Of a stretch of DNA of 49,549 nt, positions 1-43,589 are shown piece after piece (within the stretch, counting starts at the first letter, position 1; every line of letters starts with the position of its first letter). The notes below the pieces were generated by a model. That model was not told the origin of the DNA and did not search any database. It saw only the letters and a list, made by a program, of their open reading frames with translations. Position numbers and translations under genes: made by a program. Source of the stretch: a virus; the IMG/VR virus record IMGVR_UViG_3300009151_000102, positions 1 through 49,549 of that record. One strand, given 5' to 3'.

Positions 1-492
1 CACTGCACCTGCGCCACCGCCGCCAGCACCACCAAGAAAACCTCCTGCTCCGCTTGAACTACCGCCATTATTTCCTTGTCCTGCTGTTCCTAAACCACCT
101 GGCGCTGTTCCCGCATTAGCTTCACCAACACCGCCACCACCTCCAGAACCACCAGGAAGACCAGCAGCTAGTGAAGAACTAATATATCCACCGCCTTTAC
201 CACCACCAATAGATATAATTGAAGTAGAAGAACCAACTATACTACTATTGTTACCACTCACTGCATTATTAGCACCTGAAGTTGCACCTGTTCCACCAGA
301 ACCTACAGTAATTGTATATGTTGCATTAACAGCACTAAATGATCCCGTAAGAAAACCACCTGCACCGCCACCGCCACCACGTTTTGAACCACCGCCACCA
401 CCACCCGCAACAACAAGATATGTAACTGCAGGAATTACAACGGGTGAATAAGCAAGTCCGCCAGTAATTATTCCTCCACCATTAATTAACAT
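1..492 (-). CDS. Glycine-rich tail adhesin-like protein, C-terminus cut by window edge
   Basis: The frame is open from ATG at 492 to the window edge (164 codons, no stop), so the C-terminus is missing. After about 30 residues containing a short hydrophobic stretch (VTYLVVAGGG) the protein is dominated by runs of glycine (GGGGGG, GGGGGAGG, GSGGGGGVG) separated by short Ser/Thr/Asn-rich strands. The VxYLVVAGGG opening followed by poly-Gly is typical of the glycine-rich domains on phage tail-tip and fibre proteins. Glycine-rich adhesins of T-even relatives (gp38 type) form polyglycine-II sandwiches that carry the host-recognition loops; the same role is inferred here. It is a paralogue of the next gene upstream (506-1399), and the ribosome site AGAGAG lies just before the start. 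It is the last visible gene of the fibre operon. Confidence 0.75.
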   Translation of the reverse strand, partial: MLINGGGIITGGLAYSPVVIPAVTYLVVAGGGGGGSKRGGGGGAGGFLTGSFSAVNATYTITVGSGGTGATSGANNAVSGNNSSIVGSSTSIISIGGGKGGGYISSSLAAGLPGGSGGGGGVGEANAGTAPGGLGTAGQGNNGGSSSGAGGFLGGAGGGGAGAV

Positions 493-505
493 TTATCATT
501 CTCTC

Positions 506-1399
506 TTAAAATGTTATTGAACCAGAAGATGTAAATTTGTATATTCTAAAACCACCAGTAACTGTGACTGTTGGTGATCCTGTATTTGCTGATGCTGCGT
601 TATAATAATCTGGATATTTTAATACTACTACACCTGAACCGCCACCGCCAGCACCTTCACCGTTTGCAGCACCACTTCCTCCGCTACCAGTATTTGCTGT
701 TCCACTCGAACCGGCTGCTCCAAACCAACCGTTGTATCTAACACCAGGTCCTCCACTAGAATAAGTAATACTAGATCCGGTGATACTATTTGAAATTCCA
801 GCACCGCCAGAAACTGGGCCCGCACCACCAGTATAATTAGCTCCCACACCGCCAGCACCACCACCACCGCCACTACCACCAAAGTTGCCACTAACATATG
901 TACCATTACCGCCATCATAACCTTGTCTTGTTGCTTCATCAATATATGTTGATCCTGAATACACTCCTTTTCCGCCCACAGCTCCAGTTGTGCCACTAGT
1001 TAATCCACTAGCGCCGCCACCACCAGAGCCGCCAGAAGTGCCTGGAGTTCGTGATGGTGCACCTCCTCCACCTCCACCATACGATAATACAGAAATTCCA
1101 GAACCACTGATAGAAGTATTTGATCCGTTATTTCCTTGTTTATTAGTGCCACTAGCTATTGCAGCACCACCAGCACCTACTGTTATTGTAAAAGTATTAC
1201 CATATGAAACTGAAGAAATTGTTGATGTTAAGTAACCACCAGCACCACCGCCACCACCACTCTCAGAAGATGAAGAACCAGTAGCTCCTGATGCACCGCC
1301 CCCTACTGCAAGATATTCCATATTAAGTATAGCGGTAACTGGTGGAGGTTCATAAAAATTAAAATTACCTCTAATAGTTGTTCCACCTCTAATTATCAT
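506..1399 (-). CDS. Glycine-rich tail adhesin-like protein (297 aa)
   Basis: A short N-terminal head (about residues 1-30, MIIRGGTTIRGNFNF) is followed by MEYLAVGGG and three blocks of glycine runs (around residues 48-55, 110-130 and 178-186) separated by Ser/Thr/Tyr-rich segments. The end (TGGFRIYKFTSSGSITF) is a non-glycine beta-like cap of the kind often found in prophage glycine-rich domain proteins. It shares the head (INGGG/IRGG... then YLVxGGG) with the gene at 1-492, indicating duplication. A start at ATG 1399 is supported by GAGAGACTATAA just upstream. Probably a distal fibre or receptor-binding component; the exact receptor cannot be inferred. The proline-rich plus-strand frames here are antisense images of the Gly codons. 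Confidence 0.75.
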   Translation of the reverse strand: MIIRGGTTIRGNFNFYEPPPVTAILNMEYLAVGGGASGATGSSSSESGGGGGAGGYLTSTISSVSYGNTFTITVGAGGAAIASGTNKQGNNGSNTSISGSGISVLSYGGGGGGAPSRTPGTSGGSGGGGASGLTSGTTGAVGGKGVYSGSTYIDEATRQGYDGGNGTYVSGNFGGSGGGGGAGGVGANYTGGAGPVSGGAGISNSITGSSITYSSGGPGVRYNGWFGAAGSSGTANTGSGGSGAANGEGAGGGGSGVVVLKYPDYYNAASANTGSPTVTVTGGFRIYKFTSSGSITF

Positions 1400-1415
1400 T
1401 TATAGTCTCTCATTA

Positions 1416-1793
1416 TTATGTTGTAATTTCTAGAAGTTTCCAGTTAATAGTTTCTTCATCCCAATCATATAATTTACCATCTGTTGGATAAGGTATTGGT
1501 GATTCCCATAAGAATGTAGTTGAATTTAATGTCCAACTAGCAAATGGTTTTGGTGGATAAAATACATCCAATTCACTATCATAAATGTAACCAATGCCTG
1601 CATAGTTACCACGCATAGCAGGTTTATCATCAGGTTCATTTGTGATTGGATCATAGTGTATTCCACCTCTTGTGTTATAGGATGTTTGAATCCATAATGA
1701 AGGATTACCAAATAAACCGGTATCAATTACATCTTGTTCTACTACTATTACTTGAGTAACAATACCACCTTCCACTTTTGCAAAATGACTCAT
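1416..1793 (-). CDS. Conserved phage protein of unknown function (125 aa)
   Basis: This small globular-looking protein begins MSHFAKVEGGIVTQVIVV and contains WIQTSYNTRGGIHYDP, RGNYAGIGYIYD and FYPPKPFASWTLN, a recognisable signature of a protein often found beside tail-fibre genes in cyanophages, pelagiphages and related T4-like phages. The Trp/Tyr-rich, beta-prone sequence fits a virion-associated or fibre-accessory role, but no function is established that I know of. A strong ribosome site (AGGAGA) precedes ATG 1793. It lies between the glycine-rich adhesins and a small unknown gene in one minus-strand operon. Confidence 0.75.
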   Translation of the reverse strand: MSHFAKVEGGIVTQVIVVEQDVIDTGLFGNPSLWIQTSYNTRGGIHYDPITNEPDDKPAMRGNYAGIGYIYDSELDVFYPPKPFASWTLNSTTFLWESPIPYPTDGKLYDWDEETINWKLLEITT

Positions 1794-1813
1794 ATTTTTT
1801 TCTCCTATTACTT

Positions 1814-1996
1814 TTATCCTGTAGAATAATTATTATATGTATCACTAGGTGTTAAAATTGTTGGATCAGTGCTTGGATCAGATTCAATATATAATATTTT
1901 TACTGCACCAATATCATTTAAACTTGATATTAAATTGGCATATGAACCCTCAAATGTTATAACTTCAGAACATATATTGTAAGTTAAAGTAGCCAT
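1814..1996 (-). CDS. Small hypothetical protein (60 aa)
   Basis: A 60-residue acidic ORF with no motif I recognise. It starts at ATG 1996, one base beyond the stop of the preceding structural gene, so translation is probably coupled; the leader overlaps that gene's end. Its position in a tightly packed fibre operon, with only about 20 bases to the next gene, supports it being real. Possibly a fibre assembly factor or small virion protein, but nothing in the sequence shows this. Confidence 0.55.
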   Translation of the reverse strand: MATLTYNICSEVITFEGSYANLISSLNDIGAVKILYIESDPSTDPTILTPSDTYNNYSTG

Positions 1997-1997
1997 A

Positions 1998-3059
1998 TTA
2001 TGTAGCGTTCGTTTGTATAATTACACCATACTTGGTGCAGACATTAAAGAATGTGTATGTATTATCATTAAGACTAACCGTGTCTCCAGTTGTTCCCATA
2101 CCACCAGTTGTCCAATAAATTGGAACAACACCTGTAACATATTGTGTTGGATATCCTATTTGCTGCATACTATAAAATACTGGTGATACAACATATTTTG
2201 GATTACCTGATGCATCAATTGTATTTGTTCTACGACCAGTTCCCGTTTGAGCAATAGTTAATGTTGCTGCTGTGTTTGTACCTATATCATATATTGGATA
2301 ATTAGTTCCACCATTTGGATTAGTTACATTACTAGTAAAAGCAGCTATACCCCAAGTGACTGCTGTGGAAGCAGTTGAGTATAATGTTGCTCCAGAAGTT
2401 GTATATGTAGTTAAAGCACTTGCTGATGTTCCTGCATAATGATTATACATTACAAATGGTGCAGTACCATAAAATGTGTGAGCATTAGTCATTGACGATT
2501 CCCACAATCCAACCATTCCCACATTTTCACAAATTAATGTGCAATGTCTTTGATTGGCAATAAGATAATAAGTTTGACTAGTAGAACCAAAACTTGAAGT
2601 TAAACCGTAAGTATCTCTAGTAGCTATGTTTGCAGCAGTAGAATTAATATATAATCTAGGCGTTTCACCCGTAACAACTCCTACTGATGATGCATTTGAA
2701 CCGGCAGTAACGGTAAAACCTGCATTAAACGATGTATTACTAGAATAATTATATGGATTTAATGTAATATATTTTAATGCTGAACCAGAAAGACATGGTG
2801 CTGAAAAACAAAAGTTCCATGATGTTCCATCGGGTGCAGTAGTTTCACTAGATGTTGCAATTGTTGGTCGGTCTACAGAATGATTACTACCAACATAAGT
2901 CCATCCTGCAGCGGTTGAATCAAATATGACAGAAGATGATTGAGAAAATCCACTCAACAAACTTGTGCTTGGTGAAGAGTTGGTTATTAATCTTCCAATG
3001 TCTCTTAAATAAAACAATGGATTAACATAGGTTGATGGAGTTACTAATTTTGCATACAT
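1998..3059 (-). CDS. Structural/adhesin-like protein, paralogue A (353 aa)
   Basis: Beta-rich, Ser/Thr/Tyr-rich protein with no lysine-rich or catalytic motif. It is clearly homologous along its whole length to the neighbouring 350-aa protein (3072-4124). Shared blocks include RDIGRLIT near residue 20, GWTYVGSNH near 53, CFSAPCLSGSALKY near 85, SSMTNAH followed by FYGTAPFV or YYGTAPFV near 190, and IGYPTQYVTGV near 305. It starts with ATG 3059 after AGGAAAATAAT. The location among fibre genes and the lack of enzymatic motifs point to a virion surface protein. No family name is certain; similar proteins are known in T4-like marine phages as hypothetical structural proteins. Confidence 0.7.
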   Translation of the reverse strand: MYAKLVTPSTYVNPLFYLRDIGRLITNSSPSTSLLSGFSQSSSVIFDSTAAGWTYVGSNHSVDRPTIATSSETTAPDGTSWNFCFSAPCLSGSALKYITLNPYNYSSNTSFNAGFTVTAGSNASSVGVVTGETPRLYINSTAANIATRDTYGLTSSFGSTSQTYYLIANQRHCTLICENVGMVGLWESSMTNAHTFYGTAPFVMYNHYAGTSASALTTYTTSGATLYSTASTAVTWGIAAFTSNVTNPNGGTNYPIYDIGTNTAATLTIAQTGTGRRTNTIDASGNPKYVVSPVFYSMQQIGYPTQYVTGVVPIYWTTGGMGTTGDTVSLNDNTYTFFNVCTKYGVIIQTNAT

Positions 3060-4823: not shown

Positions 4824-6682
4824 TATTGTAATACCTCTACAGTTTTTACATGAGCTACCCAACGAACATTTGAACTTGCTGCACCAGTGACGTAAATGTT
4901 TACTGTATCCGTTGTATTATTCGCTCTTGCATCTATTGACCAAGTTCCAATATCTCTATGAATAACTATTTCATATAATGATCCAGCATCAGATGCTATT
5001 CCAGAATTATTTATTGCAACACCCTTTAAATGAAATGCTGCATTTTGATTTGTAACATCTGTTCTTCTTCCAACTATATCTACAGTATAAAACATTGTAG
5101 AATTTGATGAAATTGATATTCTATTATTACCATCAATCAACAACTCTGTTTCTGTAGCATTAGTTGTTGTTCCTCTTAATATATAATCTTTAACAATGCT
5201 GTCACCAGATGAAGAAAAGTTACCAGTAGTTAGTGTTAATCCATTTGCAGTAGCAGTAAGTGTAGTATTTGAAAGTGTGATAGAATTGCCAGATGCTGTA
5301 GAACCAGAGTTTGTTCCAGAACCGGCAAATATAGTAGAAATTTCTATAGGTGCATTATTTCCAGGTGCAGATGTAAATGTTAATACTGATCCTGATATAC
5401 TATATGTAGTTTTTGGTTGAAATAAACCACCAACAGAGACTAGTGTATAATTTATATTGGATGGTGTTGTGCTTAATGAATATACAGTTTGAGAACCACT
5501 TCCTGTAAAATTATCTACAGTTATTGATATTGGTGCTATTGTATTTGCAACAGCAAAAGCAGCATTAGCATAAACACCTGCACTATTAGCTGCTTGATAT
5601 GCACTATTGGCGTATGAACCAGAAGTTACTGATCTTTGGTCTGCAGTATTAGCTGCAGTAAATGCACCGTTAGCATATGATGATGCAGATGTTATGTTTG
5701 TATTCTGTTGTGCATTAACACCATAGAAATAACTATTAGATGTGTTTGCAAATGAATATGCACTATATGCATAAGTATTTACTGTATTGGCAAATGTAAA
5801 TGCACCATTTGCATAACTTGATGCACTATTTGCAGCACTTCTTGCCCAAGAGTCTGGACTACCTGTATTTGCCTGTGCGTATGCACTATTAGCATAACTA
5901 CCTGCACTGTTAGCTGCATCTCTTGCCCATGAATCAGTTGCAGACCCGCCAGTATTTGCAGCTGCAAAAGCAGCGTTAGCATAAACACCTGCACTATTGG
6001 CAACTTGATACGCAGCATTAGTTTTATCAAATATGGATGAACCATCAAATGTTATACTTTGTGGAGATGCATTTCCATTTGCAGTAATTGTAATACCATT
6101 AGTTGGTAAGAAATTAACTGTATCAAGACCTTGCGCTGTTAGGTATGTTGTACCGTTTACTTTCCAGTATTTGAAAGTAGAATTTATTCCAACTTTAACA
6201 ATACCTTGAGATAATGCATTTACATTAAAACCAGAATCAACATCAAATCTAAGAGCAGATACATTAGATACAACATTACTTACATTACCCGAAGTATCAA
6301 TTAAACTTACAGTAAGGTTGTTTGTATTTGCAGCACTGTATTGACGTGAACCATCACCAAACAATATATAATTATTAACTGTTGCAATATTTGAAGTTAA
6401 ATTACCAGCAGTTAATAACCCATCAGATTTATTAAATGTTAATCTAGAATTGCCAGCAAAAATACCTGAATCATTAAATTGGATTTCTTTATTCAGTCCA
6501 GAAGGTTGTGTATTTGTAATTGAACCTAAAGTATTGGATGCAGTTTTATAATAGAGAATACCATCAGCATAATTGATTGTTAATTCGCCATTAGCAAGAG
6601 ATGCTACAGTTGGGACGTTTCCTGTATTTCCAGAGGAACGTAATGTAATTACTGTATTTGCTATTGCTGGTGGTCCTGACAT
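4823..6682 (-). CDS. Tail fibre protein with Ala/Asn heptad repeats (619 aa)
   Basis: Fibre-like protein. The N-terminal about 90 residues (ITLRSSGNTGNVPTVASLANGELTINYADG) match the short repeat-like attachment domain common in T4-like marine phage fibres. Residues about 210-380 are made of near-perfect seven-residue units in the style of SYANSAY/xAANTAx with an invariant Asn. The C-terminal part is beta-rich (a PITLS-type segment and a final domain with a lone FHLKG). Ala/Asn heptads of this kind suggest a trimeric coiled-coil shaft. The start ATG 6682 overlaps the stop of the upstream coiled-coil gene (TAATG). Likely role: tail or baseplate-attached fibre for adsorption. Confidence 0.75.
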   Translation of the reverse strand: MSGPPAIANTVITLRSSGNTGNVPTVASLANGELTINYADGILYYKTASNTLGSITNTQPSGLNKEIQFNDSGIFAGNSRLTFNKSDGLLTAGNLTSNIATVNNYILFGDGSRQYSAANTNNLTVSLIDTSGNVSNVVSNVSALRFDVDSGFNVNALSQGIVKVGINSTFKYWKVNGTTYLTAQGLDTVNFLPTNGITITANGNASPQSITFDGSSIFDKTNAAYQVANSAGVYANAAFAAANTGGSATDSWARDAANSAGSYANSAYAQANTGSPDSWARSAANSASSYANGAFTFANTVNTYAYSAYSFANTSNSYFYGVNAQQNTNITSASSYANGAFTAANTADQRSVTSGSYANSAYQAANSAGVYANAAFAVANTIAPISITVDNFTGSGSQTVYSLSTTPSNINYTLVSVGGLFQPKTTYSISGSVLTFTSAPGNNAPIEISTIFAGSGTNSGSTASGNSITLSNTTLTATANGLTLTTGNFSSSGDSIVKDYILRGTTTNATETELLIDGNNRISISSNSTMFYTVDIVGRRTDVTNQNAAFHLKGVAINNSGIASDAGSLYEIVIHRDIGTWSIDARANNTTDTVNIYVTGAASSNVRWVAHVKTVEVLQ

Positions 6683-9686: not shown

Positions 9687-9694
9687 TATTTATA
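9687..9694 (-). promoter_or_regulatory. T4-type late promoter TATAAATA
   Basis: Exact TATAAATA on the minus strand in the intergenic gap 9645-9705, about 40 bases upstream of the ATG at 9644. TATAAATA is the consensus of T4 late promoters, recognised by the gp55 sigma factor with gp33 and the gp45 clamp. A GAGGAC ribosome site lies between it and the start codon. It would make the 753-aa fibre and downstream fibre genes a late transcription unit. Confidence 0.75.
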
Positions 9695-34269: not shown

Positions 34270-34277
34270 TATTTATA
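34270..34277 (-). promoter_or_regulatory. T4-type late promoter TATAAATA
   Basis: Exact TATAAATA on the minus strand in the divergent intergenic region (34219-34276), about 52 bases upstream of the gp48-like start; its last base is the first base of the divergent gp4 start codon. Likely drives the long minus-strand baseplate operon. Confidence 0.65.
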
Positions 34278-41692: not shown

Positions 41693-42246
41693 AATTTTAT
41701 CTCCTTTGTTAAATCATTCAAATCACTCTGCTTCTTATAAAAAATGTGTCTACCTATCTTTGTAGTCTTAGGTAAGTTCCAACCTGGATTTACATAATCT
41801 GCATGATAGTATGTTGCACCTTCAGTCACATCATCTATAAATTCATAATTCATTAATACTCTTACTGCTATTTCACGTATACTATTATACAATAAAGTAT
41901 CTCTAATTGTCAATGCTTTATTTAAGTTTGCCTGTTCACAAACCCATGAAAATTGGCATACGTTATTTGATTTCTGGTGAACTACACTACAAATTGTTGG
42001 TGCATATTTACCAGATGCTACACGATTCAAAGTTACAAGTGCTACTGCTACCTTACCAACATCCGGTTCATGTCCCGCTTCAAAGTAAATATTCTCTGCT
42101 AAACAATCAACTTGTTTTTTAACAGGATCAGTTAAACTTTTATATGAGACATTGATCGGTAAGAAATAAGTATTTGGCACATTAACTGATAATACAACAA
42201 CAGAAAATGCCACACAGATACCCATTATGGTTAATGGTATTCGCAT
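41689..42246 (-). CDS. SleB/CwlJ-type cell wall hydrolase (endolysin), membrane-anchored
   Basis: 185 aa. N-terminal hydrophobic segment (about 5-22, TIMGICVAFSVVVLSV), an anchor or signal. Then CLAENIYFEAGHEPDVGKVAVALVTLNRVASGKYAPTICSVVHQK (Glu51 or Glu56 is the catalytic-type Glu of the Hydrolase_2/SleB family), CQFSWVCE near 112 and GATYYHADYVNPGW near 152. It is likely the endolysin, or a lysin released by SAR-type export. Strong ribosome site GGGAGAGAACA. It is just downstream of the tmRNA coding piece and shares the transcript. Confidence 0.85.
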   Translation of the reverse strand: MRIPLTIMGICVAFSVVVLSVNVPNTYFLPINVSYKSLTDPVKKQVDCLAENIYFEAGHEPDVGKVAVALVTLNRVASGKYAPTICSVVHQKSNNVCQFSWVCEQANLNKALTIRDTLLYNSIREIAVRVLMNYEFIDDVTEGATYYHADYVNPGWNLPKTTKIGRHIFYKKQSDLNDLTKEIKL

Positions 42247-42263
42247 TGTTCTCTCCCTATGAT

Positions 42264-42431
42264 TGTGATGGGTTATTCTGTTACGAGGAAACCCATCGAA
42301 ACCCTAAGTAGCCGTTAGGCTGCTAATTGATAAACGCTTTCGTTTGCATTTAAAGATTTTACTTTTAACGACTATCTGTGTCGTGTTGTCTGTTTCGTTA
42401 CTCATTGTCCTGTCGAAACTAAATCCGGCCC
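42264..42431 (-). ncRNA. ssrA: tmRNA coding piece (permuted two-piece tmRNA), tag ANESVYQLAA
   Basis: Starts GGGCCGG at 42431 (5' acceptor strand), followed by TTTAGTTTCGACAGG, the conserved D-arm-like part. The tag reads GCA AAC GAA AGC GTT TAT CAA TTA GCA GCC TAA at 42347-42315, i.e. A-N-E-S-V-Y-Q-L-A-A-stop, with LAA ending as in most proteobacterial tags. The stop is inside a hairpin (AGCC/GGCT). An 8-bp stem (42267-42274/42290-42297) follows, probably marking the 3' end. GGGCCGG pairs with CCGGTCC of the acceptor piece including G3-U70, the alanine identity pair; CAGGACA (42412-42406) pairs with UGUUCUG (43000-42994). The 3' boundary is approximate. Confidence 0.92.
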
Positions 42432-42432
42432 A

Positions 42433-42891
42433 TCATAAAGACACATGAGGATTAACTTTATTCATAACTGAACGTAATCTACCTCTAGTCCAATTTTCAG
42501 GATGATTATCCAAAGAAAATTGTCCTTCTTTTTCACCATTGTTAAACCAAAATCTTTTTGCTCTAACTTTTCTACCATCAACATCAGGTGCATATAATGA
42601 TTTTCTTTTCCAAAAAGGAATTCCATCATCATAACTTCCAACACCCCATTGTTTCATGTTGGATTTTCTAGCACCTTTTCTTCCTGCGATACTCAATAGT
42701 TCTTTGACTAATTCTTCTTTGGACATTAACCCTGCTAATCCTTGCCAAGCCAAATAATCTTCATGTAATCCATGTTTTTCCCACAATTCTTTATGTGCTA
42801 AAGCGTGTTCCTCAACAGTTAATTCCACTAAATTGTCTTTACTATCAGTACCGCCCATATGTTTAGGTATTATATGGTGTTTGTGTTTCAT
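42433..42891 (-). CDS. HNH endonuclease, putative homing endonuclease inside the tmRNA intervening segment (152 aa)
   Basis: HNH motif at residues 5-33: KHHIIPKHMGG (His5, His6), KDNLVELT (Asn20), EEHALAH (His29, His33). The C-terminal part (KRFWFNNGEKEGQFSLDNHPENWTRGRLRS) resembles the short DNA-binding repeats of phage homing endonucleases. The TGA stop ends one base before the mature 5' end of the tmRNA coding piece. The ATG at 42891 follows AGGAGA and a hairpin with two late promoters. The gene occupies the intervening segment of the permuted tmRNA, between CCA of the acceptor piece and GGG of the coding piece. No intron is involved. Confidence 0.9.
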   Translation of the reverse strand: MKHKHHIIPKHMGGTDSKDNLVELTVEEHALAHKELWEKHGLHEDYLAWQGLAGLMSKEELVKELLSIAGRKGARKSNMKQWGVGSYDDGIPFWKRKSLYAPDVDGRKVRAKRFWFNNGEKEGQFSLDNHPENWTRGRLRSVMNKVNPHVSL

Positions 42892-42916
42892 TTGTTTTCT
42901 CCTGTCGATTGTTACT

Positions 42917-42924
42917 TATTTATA
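42917..42924 (-). promoter_or_regulatory. T4-type late promoter TATAAATA (proximal)
   Basis: Exact consensus on the minus strand. RNA start about six bases downstream falls near 42911, exactly at the loop/3'-arm border of the hairpin, giving an RNA with an open ribosome site. Serves HNH, the tmRNA coding piece and the SleB lysis genes. Confidence 0.75.
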
Positions 42925-42926
42925 AT

Positions 42927-42934
42927 TATTTATA
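42927..42934 (-). promoter_or_regulatory. T4-type late promoter TATAAATA (distal)
   Basis: Second exact consensus in tandem, ten bases upstream of the proximal box, overlapping the 5' arm of the hairpin by one base. RNA from it (start near 42921) also lacks the 5' arm. Confidence 0.7.
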
Positions 42935-42962
42935 ATCGACAGAGATTTAACATATGCCCTTA

Positions 42963-43030
42963 TGGTGGACCGGGGGGGATTCGCACCCCCGTCCAGAACA
43001 CCTTTTACTTCACTTCATACAACAATTCTA
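42963..43030 (-). ncRNA. ssrA: tmRNA acceptor piece (T-arm and 3' CCA)
   Basis: On the minus strand: TGTTCTG (P2 3' strand, 43000-42994), GAC, T-stem GGGGG (42990-42986), T-loop TGCGAAT, CCCCC, acceptor strand CCGGTCC (42973-42967), discriminator A73 and CCA ending at 42963. It has no anticodon arm, so it is not a tRNA. TGTTGT (43024-43019) can pair with ACAACA (42389-42384) of the coding piece. The 5' end is uncertain (43030 or a few bases either side) and lies just after the stop of the outer-membrane protein gene at 43043. With the coding piece it makes the permuted tmRNA known in alphaproteobacteria, some cyanobacteria and betaproteobacteria and marine phages. Confidence 0.9.
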
Positions 43031-43042
43031 TTAAATATCCTA

Positions 43043-43492
43043 TTAGAAGGATACTTTAACACCTGCACCGATTGAATTACCATCAAATGACGATACACGA
43101 CTTTGACCAATCTGATAACGATAATCAACTGTTGCGGCAACATTCTTAACAATAGGATAAGATAAACCAACACCACCTGTTACAGCATATCCATCTTTAC
43201 CAGTTTGATTATCAAGCATTGCGGCACCAGCTTTAACTGAAACTTGAACTGGACCAACTTTGGCAACATCATAAGCACTAACTAAACTATAACGATCCTG
43301 ATTGTTTTTGCCTTTAGTAAACTGGTCATAACCTAAAGTAGCAGTAACACTACCAAATTTTTGACCAACGGTAATACCTTGACTATTACGATCTGTACCA
43401 CTATAATCTTTAGTTACATTAACACCTACTTCTACGCTTTGTGCTGAACCAATAACTGCCATCAATGAAACTGCTAGAATAGACTTCTTCAT
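43043..43492 (-). CDS. Outer-membrane beta-barrel protein with signal peptide (149 aa)
   Basis: Signal peptide MKKSILAVSLMAVIGSAQS (about residues 1-19), then alternating amphipathic strands (VEVGVNVTKDY, GSVTATLGYDQF, VQVSVKAGAAM, GGVGLSYPI, AATVDYRYQIG) and a C-terminal strand ending GAGVKVSF, with terminal Phe as required by the BAM complex. It is an eight-strand-like small barrel, exported to the outer membrane of the host. Preceded by GAGGAG ribosome site and a near-perfect sigma70 promoter. Possible role: change of the infected cell surface, for example superinfection exclusion; inference only. Confidence 0.85.
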   Translation of the reverse strand: MKKSILAVSLMAVIGSAQSVEVGVNVTKDYSGTDRNSQGITVGQKFGSVTATLGYDQFTKGKNNQDRYSLVSAYDVAKVGPVQVSVKAGAAMLDNQTGKDGYAVTGGVGLSYPIVKNVAATVDYRYQIGQSRVSSFDGNSIGAGVKVSF

Positions 43493-43560: not shown

Positions 43561-43589
43561 ATTATACATCATACTTCATTACATGTCAA
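43561..43589 (-). promoter_or_regulatory. Sigma70 promoter (TTGACA-17-TATAAT)
   Basis: Exact -35 (43584-43589) and -10 (43561-43566) hexamers 17 bases apart on the minus strand; RNA start near 43554. It lies partly within the 3' end of the PD-(D/E)XK nuclease gene. The -10 overlaps AATAAATA (43556-43563), so it may also work as a late promoter. Drives the outer-membrane protein and the tmRNA locus. Confidence 0.85.

Follow-up and report, generated by a model that had tools for sequence, protein, structure and literature searches.

A permuted tmRNA gene with an HNH endonuclease gene nested in its spacer

Archaeal tRNA and rRNA introns with endonuclease genes are excised by protein enzymes, with subsequent ligation of the ends. 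The arrangement described here resembles these introns in that proteins would remove the RNA segment containing the endonuclease gene, and differs in that the RNA ends would stay separate, held by base pairs. It is located in a viral stretch of 49,549 nucleotides (IMG/VR record IMGVR_UViG_3300009151_000102, positions 1 to 49,549; hereafter the window), in which a permuted, i.e. two-piece, gene for transfer-messenger RNA (tmRNA), the RNA that frees stalled ribosomes, carries an HNH endonuclease gene on the minus strand in the spacer between its two pieces. The virus is one of aquatic bacteria, and the HNH gene is probably self-spreading.

Permuted tmRNAs have already been described in phages, in the accessible part of the literature. 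The portion available of a 2025 tmRNA database paper names a tRNA-Ala gene and a repetitive element as contents of odd permuted spacers, and reports endonuclease genes from group I introns of tmRNA (PMC11915505). For T4 homing endonucleases, the accessible text of PMC2988022 describes a hairpin over the ribosome-binding site combined with a late or middle promoter, as well as an operator similar to the homing site, which has been shown for I-TevI and is putative for I-TevII/III. In the available parts of these two sources and of PMC9004378, PMC4131195 and PMC12220804, a coverage with most subscription papers outside it, no protein gene in a permuted tmRNA spacer is described.

Compared to permuted tmRNAs as represented in Rfam (RF04321 and RF01849-RF01851), the locus is alike in piece order, helices, CCA, G3-U70, the TTCGACAGG motif and a tag ending in LAA, and unlike in its spacer of 531 bases with a protein gene. 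The endonuclease-bearing group I introns in tmRNA T loops, as far as described in the accessible text, likewise place an endonuclease gene in a removed tmRNA segment; unlike such introns, the spacer exists without an HNH gene in relatives. A group I intron was rejected as an explanation for the locus, with no intron family among the seven Rfam matches listed up to E 5 in 42150-43150. With the T4-like homing endonucleases (I-TevI/II/III, SegB and Aeh1 MobE, from the parts of the source at hand), the HNH gene shares a hairpin over the ribosome-binding site and a late-promoter-like site, and it differs in its host site, a discarded spacer of a permuted RNA that is neither an intron nor an ordinary intergenic gap and requires no splicing. 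Based on anatomy, covariation, empty and occupied alleles, recurrence, complementarity of the spacer ends and a repeat in the HNH leader, all observed at the sequence level, we consider it quite likely that permuted tmRNA genes are the target of a group of HNH homing endonucleases, whose genes settle in the discarded spacer of a probably working tmRNA.

The permuted tmRNA gene and its spacer

The locus (43025-42267, minus strand) is confirmed as a permuted tmRNA gene, apparently intact, with the order acceptor piece, 531-base spacer and coding piece, and with an HNH gene in the spacer. As expected of a permuted tmRNA, the acceptor piece lies 5' of the coding piece, the halves re-pair and G3-U70 is kept. 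The acceptor piece begins with TTGTTGT (43019-43025), the acceptor-side strand of a distal helix conserved in the alignment, and continues with the P2 3' strand UGUUCUG (42994-43000), a T arm with a stem of five base pairs and a seven-base loop (42974-42990, as aligned by RF00023 and RF04321), the acceptor stem 3' half CCGGUCC including U70 (42967-42973), and A73 with an encoded CCA (42963-42966, the CCA ending at 42963), the last of these also covered by the Rfam matches. It is followed by the spacer (42432-42962), predicted to be excised from the precursor and present as the same allele in L001. The coding piece comprises the acceptor stem 5' half GGGCCGG (42425-42431), which includes G3 and places the predicted mature 5' end (G1) at 42431, the conserved TTTCGACAGG (42409-42418), the P2 5' strand CAGGACA (42406-42412), and ACAACA (42384-42389), the coding-side partner of TTGTTGT. 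In L012, the distal helix is instead formed by GTTTAC in the coding piece and GTAAAC in the acceptor piece, as identified by eye. After the resume codon, an open tag frame ending in AA encodes ANESVYQLAA (42315-42347 including the stop, tag codons 42347-42318), the same tag as in empty relatives, and a hairpin recognized by eye, GATGGGTT/AACCCATC, lies close to the 3' end (42267-42297). The original prediction had placed the CCA and G1 at precisely these positions, with the same spacer length and tag.

The HNH gene occupies 42433-42891 (minus strand) and encodes 152 amino acids, with its stop one base before the predicted mature 5' end, again as predicted. The protein matches the homing endonuclease family phrog_655 (2.6e-15) and the HNH part of the maturase chain 6me0 (5.2e-06), with a match to PF01844 (HNH) just below the cut-off (7.7e-4, 20 bits vs 21.4). 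Residues H5, H6, N20, H29 and H33 are invariant in 11 of 11 aligned members that are 39-63% identical to the window protein, and the genes evolve as coding sequences, L154 and L157 differing at 17, 10 and 49 sites by codon position.

Covariance models support the two-piece assignment. RF04321 (tmRNA_permuted) matches the two pieces of the window separately, with 42.7 and 26.1 bits (E 5.6e-07 and 0.0036) at a cut-off of 47, and RF01850 and RF00023 match on the coding side (3.5e-08) and the acceptor side (2.8e-07), respectively. In three of four nested relatives, RF04321 spans the insert above the cut-off (L171 62.5, L195 62.2 and L216 55.1 bits), the fourth, L152, being without a match at the gathering score. 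As controls, RF04321 yields 131 bits on four of four empty relatives, and in five of five ARAGORN recognizes a permuted tmRNA with the tag of the window; in the window itself it calls none.

Pairing across the gene was assessed with acceptor halves chosen blind to pairing, using 63 of 68 loci (no acceptor was found in the other five). The acceptor helix pairs in 134 of 140 cells from 20 unique genes, with 18 of the 20 helices complete, compared to a maximum of 121 paired cells in 1000 shuffles, and pairs 4-6 covary. Pairing of P2 is weaker, at 77 of 84 cells in 12 unique genes (shuffle mean 70, maximum 76). Of the re-pairing helices originally proposed, the acceptor stem is backed by pairing and covariation, and P2, less firmly, by pairing. 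Both pieces are scored by the models, and compensatory changes in the acceptor stem are present among relatives, so that the original prediction passed the two checks by which it could have been refuted.

Empty and occupied alleles can be compared directly. The related phage contigs L134 and L150 contain the same tmRNA with a 66-base spacer and no HNH gene, i.e. the kind of relative that the original prediction had proposed to look for. Their alignment to the window breaks at 42439 and 42960, with flank identities on the two sides of 96.3% and 92.7% for L134 and 96.8% and 88.2% for L150. Leaving out the acceptor stem, 149 or 150 of the nearest 150 bases per side are identical to the window, and the coding piece is the same in all three over 150 bases from TTTCGAC onward. 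The stem itself is GGGGGUG/CACCUCC in all six empty relatives examined (L091, L092, L115, L134, L147 and L150) and GGGCCGG/CCGGUCC in the occupied allele, so that both halves have changed with pairing and G3-U70 maintained. The HNH-bearing L009/L171, with an otherwise different tmRNA, carries the occupied-allele stem too. As both stem halves flank the spacer in a permuted gene, a single short conversion tract can carry the spacer, the gene and both halves. Since the short spacer of L134 is common to L091 and L147, and with small changes to L092, these sequences suggest that the empty state is likelier to be the older one. Taken together, covariance models, empty-site relatives and compensatory acceptor-stem change support a two-piece tmRNA with an HNH gene in its spacer. 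The occupied allele is also present in two further metagenome contigs, one matching the window at 99.9% identity over 9.5 kb and the other at 99.97% over 14.6 kb. We also note that L092 (about 5100-5260, plus strand) has a spacer and coding piece nearly as in L091 and a different acceptor piece, i.e. a recombination joint inside the tmRNA gene.

Base pairing between the spacer ends lengthens the acceptor stem, mostly by 9-15 pairs, and involves many different sequences. In the window, this clamp is formed by a 5' strand at 42952-42963 and a 3' strand at 42432-42446 (minus strand), as determined from the minimum free energy fold of the precursor and a duplex test, and the 3' strand is at the same time the last codons of the HNH gene (H, V, S, L, stop). 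Compared to shuffled ends, the duplex reaches z < -2 in 39 of 42 unique spacers, the misses being L129, L013 (a nested HNH locus) and L088. In the predicted fold of the window precursor, the acceptor stem has a probability of about 1.0 across the 531-base insert. Fully shuffled inserts (n=20) average 0.14, none of the 20 reaching the real value, and all 15 shuffled inserts with 20 bases per end kept are at 0.9 or more. When all HNH codons are permuted among synonyms, acceptor values range from 0.0 to 1.0, compared to at least 0.75 with the last six codons kept; the clamp 3' strand thus doubles as coding sequence. The C terminus VSL is present in the HNH genes of L162, L171 and L195, and in an unrelated 123-amino-acid gene of L129.

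Recurrence in one group of HNH genes

Four viral scans with the HNH protein, each covering the best 80 of 181-185 relatives, and one scan of genomes yielded 96 distinct HNH genes carrying the N-terminal motif of the family. Coding-piece and acceptor-piece models were run over all 96 loci and detect a tmRNA piece at most 200 bases away in 29 of them. The matches amount to 50 in 37.7 kb of flank at less than 200 bases, 10 in 142.9 kb at 200-1000 and 9 in 286.6 kb at 1000-3000, i.e. they are about nineteen times denser per flanking base within 200 bases than at 200-1000. Same-strand nesting in a permuted spacer is found for 10 of the 96 genes (L162, L195, L216, L171, L247, L152, L155, L154, L156 and L157), and in nine of these the acceptor helix is complete, G3-U70 included, and a tag-like frame is present, the helices having been sought by pairing. 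The other 19 of the 29 are located beside a tmRNA piece, 16 antisense and 3 as sense neighbours; for L247 and L323, the layout was assigned by eye in place of the automatic label. The nested HNH gene, for which the original prediction named no other example, is thus a real arrangement that is not confined to this locus and recurs in one HNH group.

All 29 tmRNA-associated genes fall in a single 39-gene group of the HNH tree, with none among the other 57 (branch support 88/91, midpoint root, 90 residues per row, many forks unresolved). A number of nesting origins, read from the tree as two changes, was dropped because these are not resolved. By eye, the C-terminal parts differ between nested and antisense members. 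One scan of bacterial genome contigs returned a single weak HNH relative (43% over 81 residues), in whose locus no tmRNA piece was found, and among named phages there are only partial relatives, 23 records with none covering 80%.

Several loci contain remnants of an older tmRNA gene. The old acceptor piece is cut off inside the T arm or the acceptor stem in L222, L323 and L233, and the old tmRNA gene ends just past the 5' acceptor half in L165 and L159. Beyond the HNH gene there is another tmRNA in L222, L323 and L165, and several hundred bases further in L233, and the contig of L159 ends within a new acceptor piece. It looks as if the insert in these five loci brought a replacement tmRNA piece. 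We note that L160 can be grouped with them: the HNH gene is flanked on one side by an acceptor piece that is truncated or extra, and on the other by another tmRNA or acceptor piece.

Proposed expression and spread, and rival explanations

In the window, an inverted repeat CTGTCGATT/AATCGACAG (42902-42942, minus strand) precedes the HNH gene, and sequence and predicted fold place a hairpin over the ribosome-binding site AGGAG (42899-42903). At the 3' arm of the repeat and overlapping the ribosome-binding site, TCGACAGGA repeats the motif found at the tmRNA 5' end. A motif scan identifies the late-promoter-like TATAAATA twice within the element, at the edge of the hairpin loop (42927-42934) and inside the loop (42917-42924). 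In the window, this motif occurs 4 times vs 12.1 expected, i.e. at about a third of the chance level, and its only other sites, 9687-9694 and 34270-34277, precede minus-strand open reading frames (ORFs) by about 42 and 51 bases.

Similar leaders are enriched in the family. An inverted repeat together with TAAATA is found within 75 bases upstream of 46 of the 96 HNH genes vs 33 of 538 control ORFs, and a repeat of at least 7 is present in 6 of the 10 nested genes; the claim of a hairpin in all nested genes was dropped, with L195 and L216 having none. Among the 24 HNH leaders whose locus has a modelled tmRNA start (a set that includes L177, with its tmRNA more than 200 bases off), 13 contain the core of the tmRNA 5' motif, TCGAC or GTCGA, compared to 6 of 72 other HNH leaders, of which some lie close to a tmRNA acceptor piece, and to 17 of 531 control ORFs. 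Words of at least 8 bases are shared with the local tmRNA start in 8 of the 24 leaders vs 4% of 300 controls. By analogy to I-TevI, late expression and autorepression may be how the HNH gene works.

From these data we infer processing, late expression, cleavage, autorepression and homing along the following lines. The precursor would be transcribed as a single RNA, in which the acceptor stem and the clamp close the 531-base loop and allow the tRNA-like domain to form. The spacer would then be removed by normal maturation, i.e. by RNase P at G1 and tRNA 3' processing at the CCA, and the insertion need not cost the tmRNA because the clamp-closed loop would let this maturation cut the spacer out. 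The HNH gene would be expressed separately and late: the hairpin would hide the ribosome-binding site in RNA started upstream, and transcripts starting inside the hairpin, at TATAAATA, would be free for translation. Autorepression as in I-TevI may act through a decoy of the enzyme's target, represented by the copies of the tmRNA 5' motif in the hairpin arms of some relatives. To spread, the enzyme would cut empty tmRNA genes close to their acceptor stem or TTCGACAGG motif, with repair from an occupied genome copying the cassette and both acceptor-stem halves as one unit. Mobility as such is suggested by the sequences, namely the occupied and empty alleles and the repeated association with tmRNA.

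A number of observations weigh against this account of the locus. The window is below every Rfam gathering score, and none of the 10 nested loci receives a tmRNA call from ARAGORN; the precursor fold that retains the acceptor stem gives the T stem only 0.28 and P2 0.36-0.39. The acceptor pairs of the nested loci were found by searching for pairing, and L156 has a weak T stem and was left unpaired by the script, its acceptor pairs being recognized by eye. With regard to recurrence, 11 of the 35 rows of the tmRNA models come from HNH loci, which favours matches near HNH genes, the 96 genes include near-copies, and 10 of the 39 genes of the group are without a tmRNA piece found in the locus. As to the leaders, only 10 of 96 have TAAATA within or at the repeat, four of the ten nested genes (L154, L157, L195 and L216) have no repeat of at least 7, those of L154 and L157 being imperfect by eye, only 8 of 24 leaders share at least 8 bases with the tmRNA start, four of them from one close group, and the 9-base match of the window between leader and tmRNA overlaps AGGAG. 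The predicted HNH structure is only moderate (mean predicted local distance difference test, pLDDT, 71), and a fold search of the Protein Data Bank with this model returned no match at E 0.001 or better.

Three alternative explanations can be weighed against these data. The spacer may be passively tolerated, with small genes drifting in by ordinary recombination and the HNH gene having no tmRNA targeting. That other genes fill spacers, such as a thioredoxin and a 123-amino-acid family among 37 unique spacers with a pairing acceptor (see below), fits this idea. However, the HNH group is also located beside tmRNA in other layouts, antisense or upstream, and neither the cut-off old acceptor pieces with a further tmRNA beyond the HNH gene in L222, L323, L165 and L233 nor the copy of the tmRNA motif in some HNH leaders is predicted by drift; we regard passive carriage as unlikely. 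Somewhat less likely still is a domesticated nuclease that no longer homes and serves the phage, for example against competitors with an unprotected tmRNA gene. The invariant HNH residues over 11 aligned members speak for this reading, and the changed acceptor stem of the occupied allele could confer immunity, but the patchy distribution, with close relatives lacking the gene, is as expected of a mobile gene.

The insertion could also have broken the tmRNA, leaving two decaying fragments around the HNH gene, in line with the scores below the gathering thresholds, the missing ARAGORN call and the poor prediction of T stem and P2 in the full precursor. Against this stand the intact CCA, G3-U70, tag frame and helix strands, the joint change of both sides of the acceptor stem, a coding piece identical to that of L134 and L150 over 150 bases from TTTCGAC, and the complete acceptor helix, G3-U70 and tag-like frame in nine of ten nested loci, which together make decay very improbable. 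A homing endonuclease nested in the spacer of a probably working tmRNA hence remains our preferred reading, with anatomy, recurrence and empty sites strongly supported, and expression timing and autorepression proposed by analogy.

If this reading is correct, it adds a new safe site for selfish endonuclease genes to introns, inteins and intergenic gaps, where insertion into a discarded spacer is cheap and the insert takes along the two halves of an essential helix. The arrangement would help to explain why a standard finder misses such tmRNA genes. It would further point to a compact phage design in which an RNA-processing helix is also ribosome-binding site and protein C terminus, and would make it testable whether tmRNA maturation is linked to expression of the nested gene.

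Other spacer genes and genomic surroundings

A scan for one clamp end beside a tmRNA start returned 56 stretches, corresponding to 37 unique spacers with a pairing acceptor; three further stretches have none in reach. The scan selects for the end motif and hence gives no frequency, and several rows are mutual relatives, so that the number of families is smaller. In 35 of the 37 spacers, a start codon lies 8-13 bases after the CCA and opens a frame of 23-133 codons; the exceptions are L378, with the shortest spacer (52 bases), and L372, a known HNH locus. The frame ends one base before G1 in 23 of the 35, or 24 of 37 counting the HNH row.

In L354, a complete thioredoxin gene with the CGPC motif (213-464, minus strand; PF00085, 4.1e-21) fills the spacer, with its start directly past the CCA and its stop one base before the coding piece. 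A family of 123 amino acids with the C terminus VSL occupies the 382-base spacers of L129, L359, L364, L390, L392 and L394; its variable sites by codon position number 8, 8 and 34, and a motif read by eye, without a library match, suggests a likeness to acetyltransferases. For the remaining spacer proteins of the ten tested, there was no convincing library match. Short hydrophobic peptides are also present in tmRNA spacers, of 23 amino acids in L353, L396 and L401, and of 36 in L352 and L386.

That every phage tmRNA spacer holds a gene was dropped as a claim, since in another set most spacers are short and empty, 43 of its 51 unique ones being without a frame of at least 60 amino acids. Likewise, the permuted spacers of four named phages, of which two are close relatives, measure 56-114 bases and have no frame ending at the spacer end. 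Permuted tmRNA genes near 1240-1400 in L403, L404 and L405, from the named phages XacN1, SM1 and PA_L9, are missing from the listed annotation of the stretch.

Judging from these sequences, phage tmRNA spacers appear to be a wider small-gene slot, with HNH genes as one of several kinds of occupant. In the nested HNH loci, the HNH stop lies inside the coding piece in 5 of 10 (in L156 by eye) and one base before it in the other 5, so that tmRNA maturation would end or damage the nested message. More tentatively, and with somewhat less than even confidence, the permuted spacer of aquatic phages may serve protein genes at large as a nest (those for a homing endonuclease, a thioredoxin and many small proteins), in which one helix would have three jobs and maturation would both limit the nested protein and expose it to rescue. 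The helix would prolong the acceptor stem, its 5' strand would bear or adjoin the ribosome-binding site, and its 3' strand would encode the last residues, often VSL and the stop. A matured nested message would, in such a nest, end at or inside its own stop codon.

The surroundings of the locus in the window are T4-like, with genes for a single-strand binding protein, baseplate, hub and head closure. When named phages are ranked on the first of these proteins, the top ten are cyanophages, with identities of 52-54%. A gene for a small outer-membrane-protein-like product (43492-43043) is located directly upstream of the tmRNA. It is preceded by TTGACA-17-TATAAT (43561-43589, minus strand), a 12/12 match and candidate promoter of the precursor; promoter-like sites in the stretch number 8 vs 10.8 expected by chance, this one being the only 12/12. 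Downstream of the tmRNA lies a gene for a cell-wall hydrolase (PF07486, 4.4e-22).

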